Shown here piece after piece: positions 14,804-28,101 of a stretch of 34,964 nt of DNA; position 1 is the stretch's first letter, and each line of letters opens with the position of its first letter. The position numbers were made by a program, and so were the translations under genes. The notes under the pieces are model-generated. The model saw only the letters and a list, made by a program, of their open reading frames with translations. It was not told the origin of the DNA and searched no databases. Source of the DNA: a virus; IMG/VR virus record IMGVR_UViG_3300023440_000014, positions 1 to 34,964 of that record; one strand, written 5' to 3'.

Positions 14804-16069
14804 ATGAAAACCAAATACGGCTCGCTGCCGTTTGATGCGCAGATTGCGTTTTTTAAAAAGAAGCTGGCGCTACCCACGCGCAGCTGGACAGATATTATTC
14901 ACGGCAACCATGATCATGCTTTCGTGGTGGCAGGGGCGAACAAACAGGCGCTGGTGGAGAGTTTTCAGGCGGCGGTGCAAAAGGCGATAGCAGACGGAAC
15001 TACGCTGGCGGCATTCCGGAAAGACTTTGACCGCATTGTGAAAGAAGCGGGCTGGGACTATAACGGCTCACGTAACTGGCGTTCACGCGTGATTTATGAA
15101 ACCAATTTGCGCACCAGCTATCAGGCGGGCCGATTCACCCAGTTGCAGAATATGGACTACTGGCAATATCATCATTCGCCAGCATCTGAAAACGCACGCA
15201 AGCAGCATGTGGCATGGGATGGCCTGATTCTGCCGAAGGATGATCCATTCTGGCAAACCAACTACCCGCCCAATGGATGGGGTTGCAAATGTACCGTGAC
15301 AGGCCACAGTCGCGCCGCTGTGCAGCGTAAGGGACTGAAGATAGCCAAATCACCGAAGCTGGAGATGCAGACGGTGGAGATTGGCTCACAGGGGCCTAAC
15401 CCGCGCAGGGTTACTGTGCCGAAAGGCGTTGGACCCGGCTGGGCCTATGCGCCGGGGCGCGATGCATGGATGCGTGGACATGCCATACCACCCAAAGGCG
15501 ATGCGCCGTGGCCATTTACAAAAGGGGAAACCGGGCGGCATCATCTGATTCCGGATTTTGCAGCGCATGATCTGTTACCGGATGCACGCCCGTTTCCAAA
15601 GTCAAGATTGCTGCCGACAGGGAAGCCGCCTGCATTCTATGCTGATGCATTCCTGAAGGAATTTGGCGGGTCGGTTGGCAAAGATGCGCTGTTTATCGAT
15701 GTGACCGGTGAACCGCTTATCCTCTCCGATACCCTGTTTCGCAAAGCCAAAGACAATACATGGAAGGCAATGAAAAACGGGCGCGAGCAATACGCACTGA
15801 TGATGGCCGAAGTGCTGAAAGCTCCGGATGAGATATGGGTTGGTATGGAGTGGAACGGCGCATTGGGCAAGGCGGTTGTTCGGCGGCGCTATGTGAGCAG
15901 GCTGATACCGAAGGATGGCACTCGCCCCGGTTTTGTGGTCTTTGAAAATGCATCAGACGGGTGGACGGGTGTCACCAGCTTCCCACGAGATTTCAATACA
16001 AGCGTGGAATGGGATGCTGAAATATCGAAAGTGAGGCGGGGCGTTCGCCTGTATCGGCGACCGGAGTAA
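14804..16069 (+). CDS. F: Head morphogenesis protein (Mu gpF / SPP1 gp7 family) with C-terminal PBECR-like nuclease domain
   Basis: 421 aa. Residues about 1-180 match the phage Mu F-like minor head protein: FDAQIAFFKKKLALPTRSWTDI, WRSRVIYETNLRTSYQAGRF, NYPPNGWGCKCTV. This part is involved in prohead assembly at the portal. The last ~120 residues (FRKAKDNTWKAMKNGREQYALMMAEVLKAPDEIWVGMEW... VRRRYVSRLI... TSFPRDFN) look like the PBECR (phage Barnase-EndoU-colicin/RelE-like nuclease) domains often fused to such proteins and thought to act on host RNA after injection. The head role is well supported; the nuclease activity is family inference. Confidence 0.85.
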   Translation: MKTKYGSLPFDAQIAFFKKKLALPTRSWTDIIHGNHDHAFVVAGANKQALVESFQAAVQKAIADGTTLAAFRKDFDRIVKEAGWDYNGSRNWRSRVIYETNLRTSYQAGRFTQLQNMDYWQYHHSPASENARKQHVAWDGLILPKDDPFWQTNYPPNGWGCKCTVTGHSRAAVQRKGLKIAKSPKLEMQTVEIGSQGPNPRRVTVPKGVGPGWAYAPGRDAWMRGHAIPPKGDAPWPFTKGETGRHHLIPDFAAHDLLPDARPFPKSRLLPTGKPPAFYADAFLKEFGGSVGKDALFIDVTGEPLILSDTLFRKAKDNTWKAMKNGREQYALMMAEVLKAPDEIWVGMEWNGALGKAVVRRRYVSRLIPKDGTRPGFVVFENASDGWTGVTSFPRDFNTSVEWDAEISKVRRGVRLYRRPE

Positions 16070-24147: not shown

Positions 24148-24672
24148 ATGCCAGGTACAACATTAACCCCAGTCATTACCGATGCCGGATTGCAGGCTGC
24201 ATTCAACGCATCAAGCACGGGCATCGCGGCGGAAATCACCCATATCGCACTGGGCGACATCGGGTATACGCCGTTATCCAGTCGCACGGCGTTAGCCAAT
24301 GAGCGCATGCGGCTGCCTGTTGCGGATGGCTCGCCGGTGACGGCCACCCAGATTCACCTGACCGGCCTGGCCGCAGGCGCAATCGAATTCTGGGTGAAAG
24401 AGGTTGGCTTCTGCCTGGCGGACGGGACGCTGTTTGCGGTTTGGAGTGACCCTGCGCAGACACTGGCATACAAGGCTGCCGGCGTGGATTTGCTGCTGGC
24501 GTTTGATTTGTCAATTGCAGCCATTCCGGCCGGATCAATCACGGTACAGGGCACAGGGCAGAACCTGAGCCTGTACTACGCCGAAGAGCTCTCAAACATG
24601 GCTATAGCCCAGCTGGGCACCATGCATCGGCAGATATTGATTGAAGAGCAACTGCAAAAAGGAGGCTTGTAA
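24148..24672 (+). CDS. H: Tail-fibre / collar N-terminal protein (P2 gpH N-terminal type)
   Basis: 174 aa. It has the phage tail-collar fibre N-terminal fold (DUF3751): LTPVITDAGLQAAFNASSTGIAAEITHIALGDIGYTPLSSRTALANERMRLP, then WVKEVGFCLADGTLFAVWSDP. The C-terminus ends in a helical, probably trimeric, segment (MAIAQLGTMHRQILIEEQLQ). In P2, gpH is one long fibre; here it is short and stops exactly where the DGR variable protein begins (overlap at 24672). So the fibre is probably split into an anchor (this gene) and a variable receptor-binding protein. Confidence 0.85.
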   Translation: MPGTTLTPVITDAGLQAAFNASSTGIAAEITHIALGDIGYTPLSSRTALANERMRLPVADGSPVTATQIHLTGLAAGAIEFWVKEVGFCLADGTLFAVWSDPAQTLAYKAAGVDLLLAFDLSIAAIPAGSITVQGTGQNLSLYYAEELSNMAIAQLGTMHRQILIEEQLQKGGL

Positions 24673-26006
24673 TGCCATTAGAACAAACAATAACTCAGCT
24701 TGTAACCGCGTCAGATACGTTGACAAACGAGGTACGCCGATTGATCGGCCAGGCACCCGTTGCATCGCCGGTAAATCCGGGTCAGCAGGGATTCGGCGTG
24801 GGTATATGCCCCGGCCCACTGCCTGCCGGCATGGCGGAGATGCCCGGCACGCGCGATGTTGCGCATGATAATTACGGCAATTATATATTTTCAGACGGAT
24901 CAATCATGGTCTGGATACCTGCGTTTTATTACAAATGGGGCACAGGCACGAACGGGCTGGCAGTTAATATTGTGGACATCGTACCGTTTGTCGGCGGGCC
25001 CTACGGCACGGTCGCCACGGCCAACGCCGCAGGCTATGCCCTGCATCGCGCATTTTACGATGGCGGTGCAATTCAGCCGGGCGTGTTTGTTGATAAATAT
25101 CAGTGCAGCAACAACGGCGGCATTGCATCATCAATTCGATTTGCGAATCCGCTATCGACAAATGCAGCGCACAACCCGATTTCCGCGCTCAGCAATGCGC
25201 CCGCCAACAACTACGGCGGCGCAATTCTTGCGCCGAAATCGCGCGGCGCGTCCTTTTTCTGTAATACGCGTTTCATTTTTTCCGCCCTGGCCATGTTATC
25301 ACTGGCGCACGCACAAAACGCGACATCGACAACGTGGTGCGCATGGTATGATGCAGCAGGCATCACAAATTATCCGAAGGGTAATAACAATAATGCCCTC
25401 GGAGATACCAATGACGCATCCATTGCGTATGTATCTGATGGTTATCCCAACGCGGGCAAAACCGGCTCGGCAAATCTGTTTGCCCGCACAACGCACAATG
25501 GCCAAAACTGCGGCGTTGCGGATATGAACGGCAATATGTGGGAGATCAATCCGGGCATCACGTCAGACGGAGTAAATCTTTATGTGATGAGCACGTCGGC
25601 TAAAATGTCCGCATCAACGGCTGGCAACACACCACTGTCTACAGATGTGTTTGGCGCGGCAGCCCTGGCCGCGCGGTACATCAACCTGGGTGCAACGCAT
25701 GCATCGTTGTGGGCAACGGGCGCAAACAGAGCTGTTCCATTCGGCAGCCCTACAACCCAGACGCTATCAGATGCAACGTCCGGCGCGGCGTGGAACACTG
25801 CTGGCGCTGGAGTGCCGCTGGCGACCGGCGGCGCGAACGCATTCGGCATGGATTACATCTGGGATTACAAGCCAAATGAAATGTGCCCGCTCGCGGGCGG
25901 CTACTGGAACGGTGGCAGCAGCGCGGGCGTGTGGGCGTTGAATCTCGCCAATGTGCGAGCCGCCTCGAACAGCACCGTGGGCTTTCGCGCGGCCTTGTAT
26001 CTCTGA
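24672..26006 (+). CDS. DGR variable protein: receptor-binding protein with FGE-like C-type-lectin fold
   Basis: 444 aa. Residues 1-40 form a short helix that may bind the upstream fibre (LEQTITQLVTASDTLTNEVRRL). The rest is the C-type-lectin variant related to formylglycine-generating enzymes: CGVADMNGNMWEINPGI at about residues 279-295, and GGYWNGGSSAGVWALN with ANVRAASNSTVGFRAAL at the end. The last 41 codons contain the variable repeat. Ten residues (407, 409, 411, 414, 417, 426, 431, 434, 435, 441) differ from the template, all through template adenines. It is the DGR target and probable tail-tip ligand; variation would change host receptor. Confidence 0.93.
   Translation: MPLEQTITQLVTASDTLTNEVRRLIGQAPVASPVNPGQQGFGVGICPGPLPAGMAEMPGTRDVAHDNYGNYIFSDGSIMVWIPAFYYKWGTGTNGLAVNIVDIVPFVGGPYGTVATANAAGYALHRAFYDGGAIQPGVFVDKYQCSNNGGIASSIRFANPLSTNAAHNPISALSNAPANNYGGAILAPKSRGASFFCNTRFIFSALAMLSLAHAQNATSTTWCAWYDAAGITNYPKGNNNNALGDTNDASIAYVSDGYPNAGKTGSANLFARTTHNGQNCGVADMNGNMWEINPGITSDGVNLYVMSTSAKMSASTAGNTPLSTDVFGAAALAARYINLGATHASLWATGANRAVPFGSPTTQTLSDATSGAAWNTAGAGVPLATGGANAFGMDYIWDYKPNEMCPLAGGYWNGGSSAGVWALNLANVRAASNSTVGFRAALYL
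25881..25993 (+). repeat. DGR variable repeat (VR)
   Basis: Aligned without gaps to 26446-26558, offset 565. All 85 positions that are not adenine in the template are identical. Of 28 template adenines, 13 differ here: seven are G, five are C, one is T. The 3' part (CGTGGGCTTTCGCGCGG, 25976-25992) is unchanged and GC-rich as expected of an IMH (initiation of mutagenic homing) element. Homology ends at about 25995, 11 bases before the stop codon. Confidence 0.96.
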
Positions 26007-26015
26007 GCGATTGAG

Positions 26016-26039
26016 CGATAGCGATATGAGCGGTTATCG
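26016..26039 (+). promoter_or_regulatory. Hairpin just after the VR (candidate homing structure)
   Basis: CGATAGC (26016-26022) pairs with GTTATCG (26033-26039) with one G-T wobble and a 10-base loop. It begins 10 bases after the target-gene stop and ends right before avd. In the Bordetella phage DGR a hairpin directly downstream of the IMH raises retrohoming. This one lies within short GAGCGAT-type direct repeats, so the assignment is tentative. Confidence 0.45.
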
Positions 26040-26042
26040 ATA

Positions 26043-26444
26043 ATGGGCATGCACGATGAAGCTAATCTGGATCGTAAGTTCACAGAATTTGCGAAGCTGA
26101 TGAATATCCACCTGAACCACTTCCCGAAGCATGAGAAGTATGGTCTGGCGCTGGAAATCCGGCGATCGGCTTATGAAATGTATGGATTTATCGTGGAAGC
26201 ACAGACGCGCTATCACAAAAAAACCACGCTAACGAATCTGGATATCAGGCATGAGCAATTGCGCATGCTGATCAGGCTGGCCTATAAGCTGGGATATTTC
26301 GGGTTCAAGGCGGGAAAGATTGCCGAGCAATCGCCAAAACAGCAGGGCGAGCATCGTTATCTCGCACTGTCAAAACTGGTTGACGAGATCGGCAAAATGA
26401 TTGGCGGATGGATTGTATCTACACGTCAACGGGAATCATCTTGA
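26043..26444 (+). CDS. avd: DGR accessory variability determinant (Avd)
   Basis: 133 aa, the usual size of Avd (about 125). It is an all-helical protein of the four-helix-bundle family also found as the 23S rRNA intervening-sequence protein: LMNIHLNHFPKHEKYGLALEIRRSAYEMYGFIVEAQTRYHKK, LTNLDIRHEQLRMLIRLAYKLGYF, HRYLALSKLVDEIGKMIGGWI. Avd is a pentamer that binds the DGR RNA and the reverse transcriptase and is essential for cDNA synthesis. It lies between VR and TR, its stop being one base before the TR. The ribosome-binding site is weak. Confidence 0.92.
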   Translation: MGMHDEANLDRKFTEFAKLMNIHLNHFPKHEKYGLALEIRRSAYEMYGFIVEAQTRYHKKTTLTNLDIRHEQLRMLIRLAYKLGYFGFKAGKIAEQSPKQQGEHRYLALSKLVDEIGKMIGGWIVSTRQRESS

Positions 26445-26445
26445 T

Positions 26446-26558
26446 ATGTGCCCGATCGCGAGCGGCAACTGGAACAATGGCAGCAACGCGGGCGTGTGGG
26501 CGTTGAATCTCAACAATGTGCGAGCCAACTCGAACAACAACGTGGGCTTTCGCGCGGA
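26446..26558 (+). repeat. DGR template repeat (TR)
   Basis: Non-coding template, 113 bases, directly downstream of avd. It reads in the VR frame as an Asn-rich peptide (11 AAC/AAT codons). AAY codons let adenine mutagenesis reach many residues without a stop codon. Differences from VR occur only at adenines (13/28). A frame that runs through it (26401-26697) is not considered a gene. Confidence 0.96.
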
Positions 26559-26696
26559 CTCGATACCTCACGGGCAGCAATGCCGAAGTGGAATCAAGGG
26601 AGATGATTTCCGGCGCGTGGGTTCGCCCCACGGCGAAATCTGCACATGCCGCCATTCTGGTAGGATTAATGATAATCTCGAAGGTCTGGCGGCATG
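26559..26696 (+). ncRNA. DGR spacer RNA between TR and RT
   Basis: In characterised DGRs the RNA just downstream of the TR primes and positions cDNA synthesis. Here it is clearly structured. CGTGGG (26616-26621) and CCCACG (26627-26632) form a perfect 6-base stem with loop TTCGC. CATGCCGCCA (26645-26654) and TGGCGGCATG (26687-26696) form a perfect 10-base stem that includes the RT start codon. Inside its loop GATTA/TAATC (26664-26668, 26673-26677) form a second stem with ATGA loop. The RT ribosome-binding site GAAGG is in the large loop. Confidence 0.7.
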
Positions 26697-27713
26697 AAGC
26701 GGGTTGGTGATTTGTACGACAGTGCATTTACGCGTGATGCGCTGCTGACCGCATACCATGCGGCAGCAAGGCACAAACACGGCAAGCGCGCGTGCTTTAA
26801 TTTTGAGCGCAGACTGGCATTCAATCTCGAATCGTTATATTGCGAATTACGCGACGGTATTTATCAACCAATGCCATATTACACGTTTGAAGTTTTTGAG
26901 CCAAAGCGCCGCACAATCTATGCACCGGCGTTTCGCGACCTCGTTGTTCAGCATGCTATTTATGCTGTTGCAAATCCGATATTCGATCGCACGTTTATCG
27001 ATCATTCATACGCATGCAGAAAAGGCATGGGTACACACAAGGCAGCGGACTATGCGCAAGCGGCATTGCGCGCCGTTCCGCATGACAGCTATACGCTAAA
27101 GACTGACGTGCGGAAGTTTTTCTATCGCATCGATAGAGGCATTCTGCGCACCCTGATTGAGCGCAAAATAAAGGACAATCGCTTCGTTGGTTTAATGATG
27201 GCGTTCGCTGATCACGGTGAGTCGGTCGGCATCCCAATAGGCAATCTACTGTCACAGCTTTATGCGCTGATTTACCTCAACCCGATGGATCAATTTGTGA
27301 AGCGCGAATTGCGCGTAAAATACTACTGCCGCTATGTTGATGATGCTGTGCTGTTTGGGCTGTCAAAAGCCGAGTGCATTGACGCAAAAAACAAAATCGA
27401 GACGCTGCTCAAGACGCTCAATCTGGAGTTATCGCACTACACAATAGCGCCGGTCAAAAAAGGCGTGAATTTTGTTGGCTATCGCACATGGGCGAGTCGC
27501 CGGTTTATCAGAAAACACAGCCTCTATAAATTCAGAAAGTCACTGAAAAAAGGCGATGTAAAAAGCGCCGTTTCAATCCTCGGTCACGCCAGAAATACCA
27601 GCTCATTGAATTCGATGTTGAGTTACATAAAAAAGGAGAAAAAACATGAAAATAGTCAGCTACAAAAAACATATCACACCCTCAGTCACTGTGTCCCTGG
27701 TGCTGTCTGTTGA
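26694..27713 (+). CDS. DGR reverse transcriptase
   Basis: 339 aa, the compact size of DGR enzymes, with RT domain only. The catalytic aspartates are in TLKTDVRKFFYRID (D138) and YCRYVDDAVLF (YVDD, residues 214-217). Motif 4 reads GIPIGNLLSQLYALIYLN (about 179-196), the form with I/V-G-x3-SQ that sets DGR enzymes apart from retron and group II RTs. The enzyme copies TR with adenine-specific errors. It starts inside a 10-base hairpin stem. Its 3' end overlaps the next gene by 68 bases. A C-rich, poorly conserved tail (QLQKTYHTLSHCVPGAVC) may be a by-product of that overlap. Confidence 0.95.
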   Translation: MKRVGDLYDSAFTRDALLTAYHAAARHKHGKRACFNFERRLAFNLESLYCELRDGIYQPMPYYTFEVFEPKRRTIYAPAFRDLVVQHAIYAVANPIFDRTFIDHSYACRKGMGTHKAADYAQAALRAVPHDSYTLKTDVRKFFYRIDRGILRTLIERKIKDNRFVGLMMAFADHGESVGIPIGNLLSQLYALIYLNPMDQFVKRELRVKYYCRYVDDAVLFGLSKAECIDAKNKIETLLKTLNLELSHYTIAPVKKGVNFVGYRTWASRRFIRKHSLYKFRKSLKKGDVKSAVSILGHARNTSSLNSMLSYIKKEKKHENSQLQKTYHTLSHCVPGAVC

Positions 27714-28101
27714 TAAGAGCGGTCAATTTGTCGGCACAGAACTGGCAACTCTGAGTGACGGGCTGACATACGTCAGCATGCCTGCGTCGGCAACGCTGCC
27801 CGCGCAGCCCAAGGAGATCGCCAAGACAGTCACTGACGGCGCTACACTATCAGCGACTACGCTCGCAGATCTGAAGGCGGCATCGCCACATGTTAAGCTG
27901 ATAAATGATCGTGTGTGCGAAAAAATTCGCGAGCAGTACTCCCTGGATGATGAGCTAAAGCTGGCGCGCATCTCAATCGGTAATTTGCAAAAAACATACA
28001 CCGCCAGCGCGGCGGAGTTACAGGCCGTGACCGACTATCAGGTTGCAGTAGAAGCGGCGCGGGCGTGGGGCCGGGCGGAAAAAGCGAAGTTGGGACTATA
28101 A
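27646..28101 (+). CDS. Unknown protein at the tail-fibre-assembly (P2 gpG) position
   Basis: 151 aa with a strong ribosome-binding site (AAAAGGAGAAAAAAC), starting 68 bases inside the RT gene. It has a beta-rich N-terminus (KIVSYKKHITPSVTVSLVLSVDKSGQFVGTELATLSDGLTYVSM) and a helical C-terminus (SAAELQAVTDYQVAVEAARAWGRAEKAKLGL). In P2 the gene between the fibre and the sheath (G) is the fibre chaperone. No motif of that family is seen here, so the chaperone role is an inference from position. It could instead be a DGR-linked accessory protein. Confidence 0.7.
   Translation: MKIVSYKKHITPSVTVSLVLSVDKSGQFVGTELATLSDGLTYVSMPASATLPAQPKEIAKTVTDGATLSATTLADLKAASPHVKLINDRVCEKIREQYSLDDELKLARISIGNLQKTYTASAAELQAVTDYQVAVEAARAWGRAEKAKLGL

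Follow-up and report, generated by a model that had tools for sequence, protein, structure and literature searches.

Introduction

The closest described systems are the diversity-generating retroelement (DGR) of the Bordetella phage BPP-1, whose target protein is Mtd (PDB 1YU0-1YU4), the prophage DGR of Thermus aquaticus with its variable protein TaqVP (PDB 5VF4; PMC6328139), and the virus DGRs of Roux et al. 2021 (PMC8144416). In phage DGRs, including that of BPP-1, the variable repeat (VR) is followed by a hairpin with a GC-rich stem of 7-10 bp and a GRNA loop (PMC3240598). The nine variable residues of TaqVP are solvent-exposed (PMC6328139).

The window, that is, the whole stretch of viral DNA that was analyzed (an IMG/VR record of 34,964 bases), contains a genuine DGR of this known type with all of its core parts open. 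The coordinates of its features are shown in Table 1. We assign a probability of about 95% to the reading that the repeat is the VR of a phage DGR, in which variation templated by the template repeat (TR) and driven by AAY codons would affect about a dozen surface residues on a C-type-lectin fold and lead to varied receptor binding, with the D441A difference representing a fixed boundary.

Table 1. Features of the DGR locus and the evidence used to identify them
Feature	Position	Strand	Evidence
Tail-collar fibre gene, directly upstream of the target	24148..24672	+	PF12571 1.1e-8, phrog_3737 3.5e-65
DGR target gene: tail-fibre-type variable protein, 444 aa, FGE-type C-type-lectin fold (predicted)	24672..26006	+	ORF; PHROG tail matches; TaqVP by sequence E 2.2e-7, by model Z 27.6
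VR	25877..25995	+	119-nt repeat of TR; 13/14 mismatches at TR adenines
IMH region: invariant VR 3' end, codons 436-441, fixed A>C vs TR at codon 441; limits approximate	25977..25994	+	GAC to GCC in 73/73; matches TaqVP invariant beta5 strand
Post-VR hairpin core GAGC[GATA]GCGA, putative tandem G.A mismatches	26013..26024	+	Kept after VR in 47 distinct loci; after TRs 0
Avd accessory gene	26043..26444	+	PF22296 3.8e-18, phrog_3206 2.9e-26
TR	26442..26560	+	11 AAY codons, in register with target
DGR reverse transcriptase, 339 aa, IGNLLSQ and YVDD motifs	26694..27713	+	PF00078 1.4e-14, phrog_1423 8.8e-98

Results

The DGR is located in the tail-gene block of a Mu-like phage. The record starts with a Mu-type transposase and also includes a Mu-type portal and a Mu F protein. 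Genes for baseplate J, tail protein I and the tail-collar fibre protein are found upstream of the DGR, and those for the tail sheath and the tape measure are found downstream. The Avd gene lies between the repeats, its 3' end running a few bases into the TR, and the reverse transcriptase gene lies 3' of the TR. The Avd product scored above the cut-off for PF22296 and slightly below that for NF033474 (75.1 bits, cut-off 80). Both the reverse transcriptase and the Avd reading frames are full-length and open, and their motifs are retained. The record has one VR, and neither a second VR nor a second reverse transcriptase was found within its 34,964 bases. No family in Pfam or NCBIfam matched the target protein, which was placed through PHROGs, a profile search of solved structures and a structural model. 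Two other reading frames were observed in the record. One, at positions 14804-16069, encodes a Mu F-like protein with a C-terminal PBECR2 nuclease-like domain, and the other, a 151-aa ORF at 27646-28101 without a clear family assignment, overlaps the last 68 nt of the reverse transcriptase gene in a different frame.

The TR lies 565 bp downstream of the VR and the two share 88% identity over 119 nt. All but one of the 14 mismatches fall on TR adenines, which account for 29 of the 119 TR bases (hypergeometric P = 1.0e-8). The remaining one, a T>A change, is at the extreme 5' end. The TR has an open reading frame that resembles the end of the gene, as would also be expected if it were a degraded, neutrally drifted copy produced by an ordinary gene duplication. 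This origin has a negligible probability given the concentration of mismatches on adenines, a pattern repeated in the 90 TR/VR pairs described below, the adjoining reverse transcriptase and Avd genes, and the existence of relatives with identical TRs and unlike VRs. Neutral duplication was ruled out by the adenine bias of the mismatches.

The first-pass annotation of this DNA had listed ten residues changed between template and VR (I407L, S409G, N411Y, N414G, N417S, N426A, N431A, N434S, N435T and D441A), and all of them were reproduced codon by codon. Its description of the template was exact as well. The TR has 11 AAC or AAT codons (411, 413, 414, 417, 424, 426, 427, 431, 433, 434 and 435) plus ATC at 407, AGC at 409 and GAC at 441. 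A further AGC, absent from that list of sites, is found in the TR at 416 and is the same in the VR. AAY codons make up 11 of the 38 TR codons vs 37 of the 403 in the rest of the target gene (Fisher P = 0.001). Randomization of the adenines in these codons gives access to 15 amino acids and no stop codon, as the annotation had proposed for their design, and no stops were found at the AAY sites in 90 VRs compared. The codon sets place the upper bound of the repertoire at 15^11 = 8.6e12 protein variants for the 11 AAY sites and at 5.5e14 when 407, 409 and 416 are added.

To extend the analysis beyond a single pair, relatives were collected with target and reverse transcriptase queries, which returned about 100 viral loci, and by a search of bacterial genomes, which returned 60. 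A TR/VR pair was accepted when at least 75% of its mismatches were on A, and by this rule many relatives carry a pair of their own. L103 was excluded from the per-site counts due to a misassigned target frame, and L121 had no usable anchor. In 90 pairs with the same layout the VR was changed at 1240 of 2318 TR adenines vs 64 of the 7624 TR bases other than A (A>G 656, A>C 308, A>T 276), counts that are descriptive and carry no test since adenine bias was the criterion for choosing the pairs, which include both close and distant relatives. The script detected no TR/VR pair in L108, L115, L116, L119, L120, L127, L131, L137-L140 and others, some of which may be without a DGR of their own and some truncated by contig ends. 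The closest relative from a bacterial assembly, L107 (75% identity), is on a contig of a Mariprofundaceae MAG, followed by L108 (62%) from a zetaproteobacterial MAG. A literature search for DGRs in connection with Mariprofundus gave nothing. The phage host may be an iron-oxidising zetaproteobacterium.

Comparison of the pairs, site by site, separated the positions that vary from those that do not. At each of the 11 AAY sites, 71-93% of the pairs with an AAY codon in that position showed a change, giving 9-15 residue types and no stops. The ATY codon at 407 yielded I, L, V and F, with R or M being rare. The other sites behaved differently: AGC at 409 became Gly in 13 of 14 pairs, Ser was kept in 13 of 20 pairs with AGC or AGT at 416, and all 73 pairs with GAC at 441 of the TR had GCC at this codon of the VR, with GCC also present in 11 more pairs that have GAC one codon earlier. 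Eight comparisons between near-identical phages showed changes at 407, 411, 413, 414, 416, 417, 422, 424, 426-428, 430, 431 and 433-436 and never at 409 or 441, those at 409 being informative only for L048/L050/L052, as the other phages have GGC in the TR. By these comparisons, diversification involves the 11 AAY sites and 407, and S409G is nearly fixed. Since GAC was replaced by GCC in every one of the 73 pairs, D441A is read as a fixed difference between TR and VR in the IMH region and not as the product of recent mutagenesis. The comparison thus showed D441A to be a fixed IMH/IMH* boundary mark that is not diversified, and by analogy with the family this element would act in homing.

The list of ten variable residues therefore needed to be modified. 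Residue 441 was removed as fixed, 409 was treated as nearly so, and the list was incomplete because the AAY sites 413, 424, 427 and 433, which are the same as the TR in this phage, vary in relatives. A reading in which all ten residues, including 441, are diversified ligand contacts agrees with the fact that every one is a TR-adenine change in this single pair. Nonetheless, it is very improbable, and for 441 already refuted, in view of the constancy of 441, both across the pairs and between near-identical phages, its match to the invariant beta5 strand of TaqVP, and the Gly found at 409. A lone TR/VR pair overcounts by taking fixed differences as variable, and it overlooks AAY sites left unmutated by chance. 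The roughly 90 comparable pairs of one phage DGR family make it possible to tell which sites are diversified and which are fixed differences at the TR/VR boundary.

The structure of the target protein was predicted with AlphaFold2 from an alignment of 47 relatives (mean pLDDT 80.7, pTM 0.86). The pLDDT is below 50 at residues 414-418, and the model alone places the middle of the VR poorly. VIA-align of the model retrieved TaqVP (5vf4) over 298 residues with an rmsd of 3.2, followed by Mtd variants (Z about 11) and by PvdO and formylglycine-generating enzymes (about 9-11), showing by model that the VR domain has an FGE-type C-type-lectin fold. The sequence profile found TaqVP as well, and the VR alignment is gapless. 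With an offset of 63, TaqVP I344, D348, N351, V354, Y361, N364, S368, R370 and G372 correspond to 407, 411, 414, 417, 424, 427, 431, 433 and 435. Because all nine variable residues of TaqVP, published as exposed, align without gaps with sites in this protein, homology supports the location of the diversified residues on one exposed C-terminal face. Position 441 corresponds to TaqVP 378, which is within the invariant beta5 strand, and the model has a strand at 440-443. The ligand face had been assigned to the extreme C-terminus on the grounds that the last changed site is 441. A ligand face in the C-terminal VR fits the TaqVP structure, but the argument from 441 was unsound, since the position of the face cannot be deduced from a fixed IMH/IMH* difference that lies in the invariant last strand.

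Several groups of relatives, which are different contigs with the same TR and unlike VRs, capture DGR activity as it occurs in nature. In L031 and L036 the TR, the 526 nt that separate the two repeats and the 899 nt upstream of the VR are all identical, but the VRs have 13 differences, each of them at a TR adenine. The same pattern was observed in L048/L050/L052, with 2 to 19 VR differences (17 for L048 vs L052), while L046 and L066 have 17 VR differences, and L039 and L041 have one difference in the 899 nt upstream and 14 in the VR. Near-identical relatives with unlike VRs show the cassette at work in nature, and these sequences represent strong indirect evidence of retrohoming in this DGR family. 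We infer that the copy in the 34,964-base record is active as well. It is improbable that the DGR is now inactive in this phage and that its VR is a frozen product of past mutagenesis. A single VR is known for the record and the outer stem of its hairpin is weak, as an inactive copy might have; however, the reverse transcriptase and Avd frames are complete and uninterrupted, their motifs are retained, and the nearest relatives (L005, L009, L085 and L086) have the same weak hairpin but unlike VRs.

Scoring of the hairpin downstream of the VR by Watson-Crick pairs only failed at many loci, including that of this phage, and therefore a reading with G.A pairs was considered. Of 81 distinct loci, 46, including that of this phage, have the sequence GAGC-GRNA-GCGA downstream of the VR, compared with 0 of 89 downstream of the TR. 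The more general pattern GA-NN-GRNA-N'N'-GA with complementary NN was present at 47 distinct loci (GC/GC 41, AC/GT 4, GT/AC 2). Here the constancy of the GA/GA flank is built into the pattern, the count used the very loci from which the motif had been derived, and the sequences are related and thus not independent of each other. Pairing of the outer arms is stronger than after the arms are shuffled among loci (mean 3.57 bp vs 1.90; 0 of 1000 shuffles). In the copy of this phage the outer stem is weak, with 2 bp, the loop GATA fits GRNA, and the stem is short and includes the tandem G.A. Continuous Watson-Crick stems occur in at least 17 relatives. The GA/GA block is retained with covarying stems on either side, which suggests tandem G.A pairing. 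We lean slightly towards a target mark in this lineage of phage and prophage DGRs that is a non-Watson-Crick cruciform. Its GRNA loop would be closed by two covarying pairs, followed by an invariant tandem 5'-GA-3'/5'-GA-3' mismatch (sheared G.A pairs, probably), then by a bulge or small internal loop, and finally by an outer stem that covaries. This arrangement would replace the continuous stem of the BPP-1 type. The G.A hairpin is the one unusual feature of this DGR, and a search of the literature on tandem G.A in DNA hairpins found nothing on DGRs. If confirmed, this variant would widen the known range of DGR target sites and aid automated target finding.

Discussion

The recombination pathway can be proposed by analogy with the DGR family. 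The TR would be transcribed and copied into cDNA by the reverse transcriptase and Avd, with random bases incorporated opposite template adenines. The cDNA would then replace the VR at the 3' end of the target gene, presumably guided by the IMH/IMH* difference and the post-VR hairpin. At 11 positions the AAY codons could give up to 14 other residues, free of stops, with a smaller choice at 407 and a weak one at 409 and 416. The diversified residues would form one exposed ligand site, as suggested by the model for the FGE-type fold and by homology for the exposure. Through this site the phage may vary its receptor binding, a function and a type of ligand expected from Mtd.

Comparison with known systems located this DGR among them. 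TaqVP has the same FGE-type C-type-lectin fold, as aligned over the 298 residues, the VR is at the extreme C-terminus in both proteins, and the last strand is invariant and IMH-coded. The nine TaqVP variable positions all match sites in this protein, one of them ATC-coded. The two differ in sequence (about 20% identity), in the number of AAY sites (11 vs 7 in TaqVP) and in the extra variable sites 413, 426 and 434, the last of which corresponds to an invariant Trp in TaqVP. The BPP-1 DGR shares a phage tail gene as target, Avd and reverse transcriptase, adenine mutagenesis, an IMH and a post-VR hairpin, and Mtd belongs to the same fold class. However, its sequence is distant, the phage described here is Mu-like, and the putative tandem G.A mismatches in its hairpin contrast with the continuous Watson-Crick stem of BPP-1. 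The DGRs of Roux et al. have in common the IMG/VR source, targets in tail structures, a C-type-lectin VR domain and at least 75% of mismatches on adenines, and no difference from them was found in source, targets, VR domain or adenine bias.
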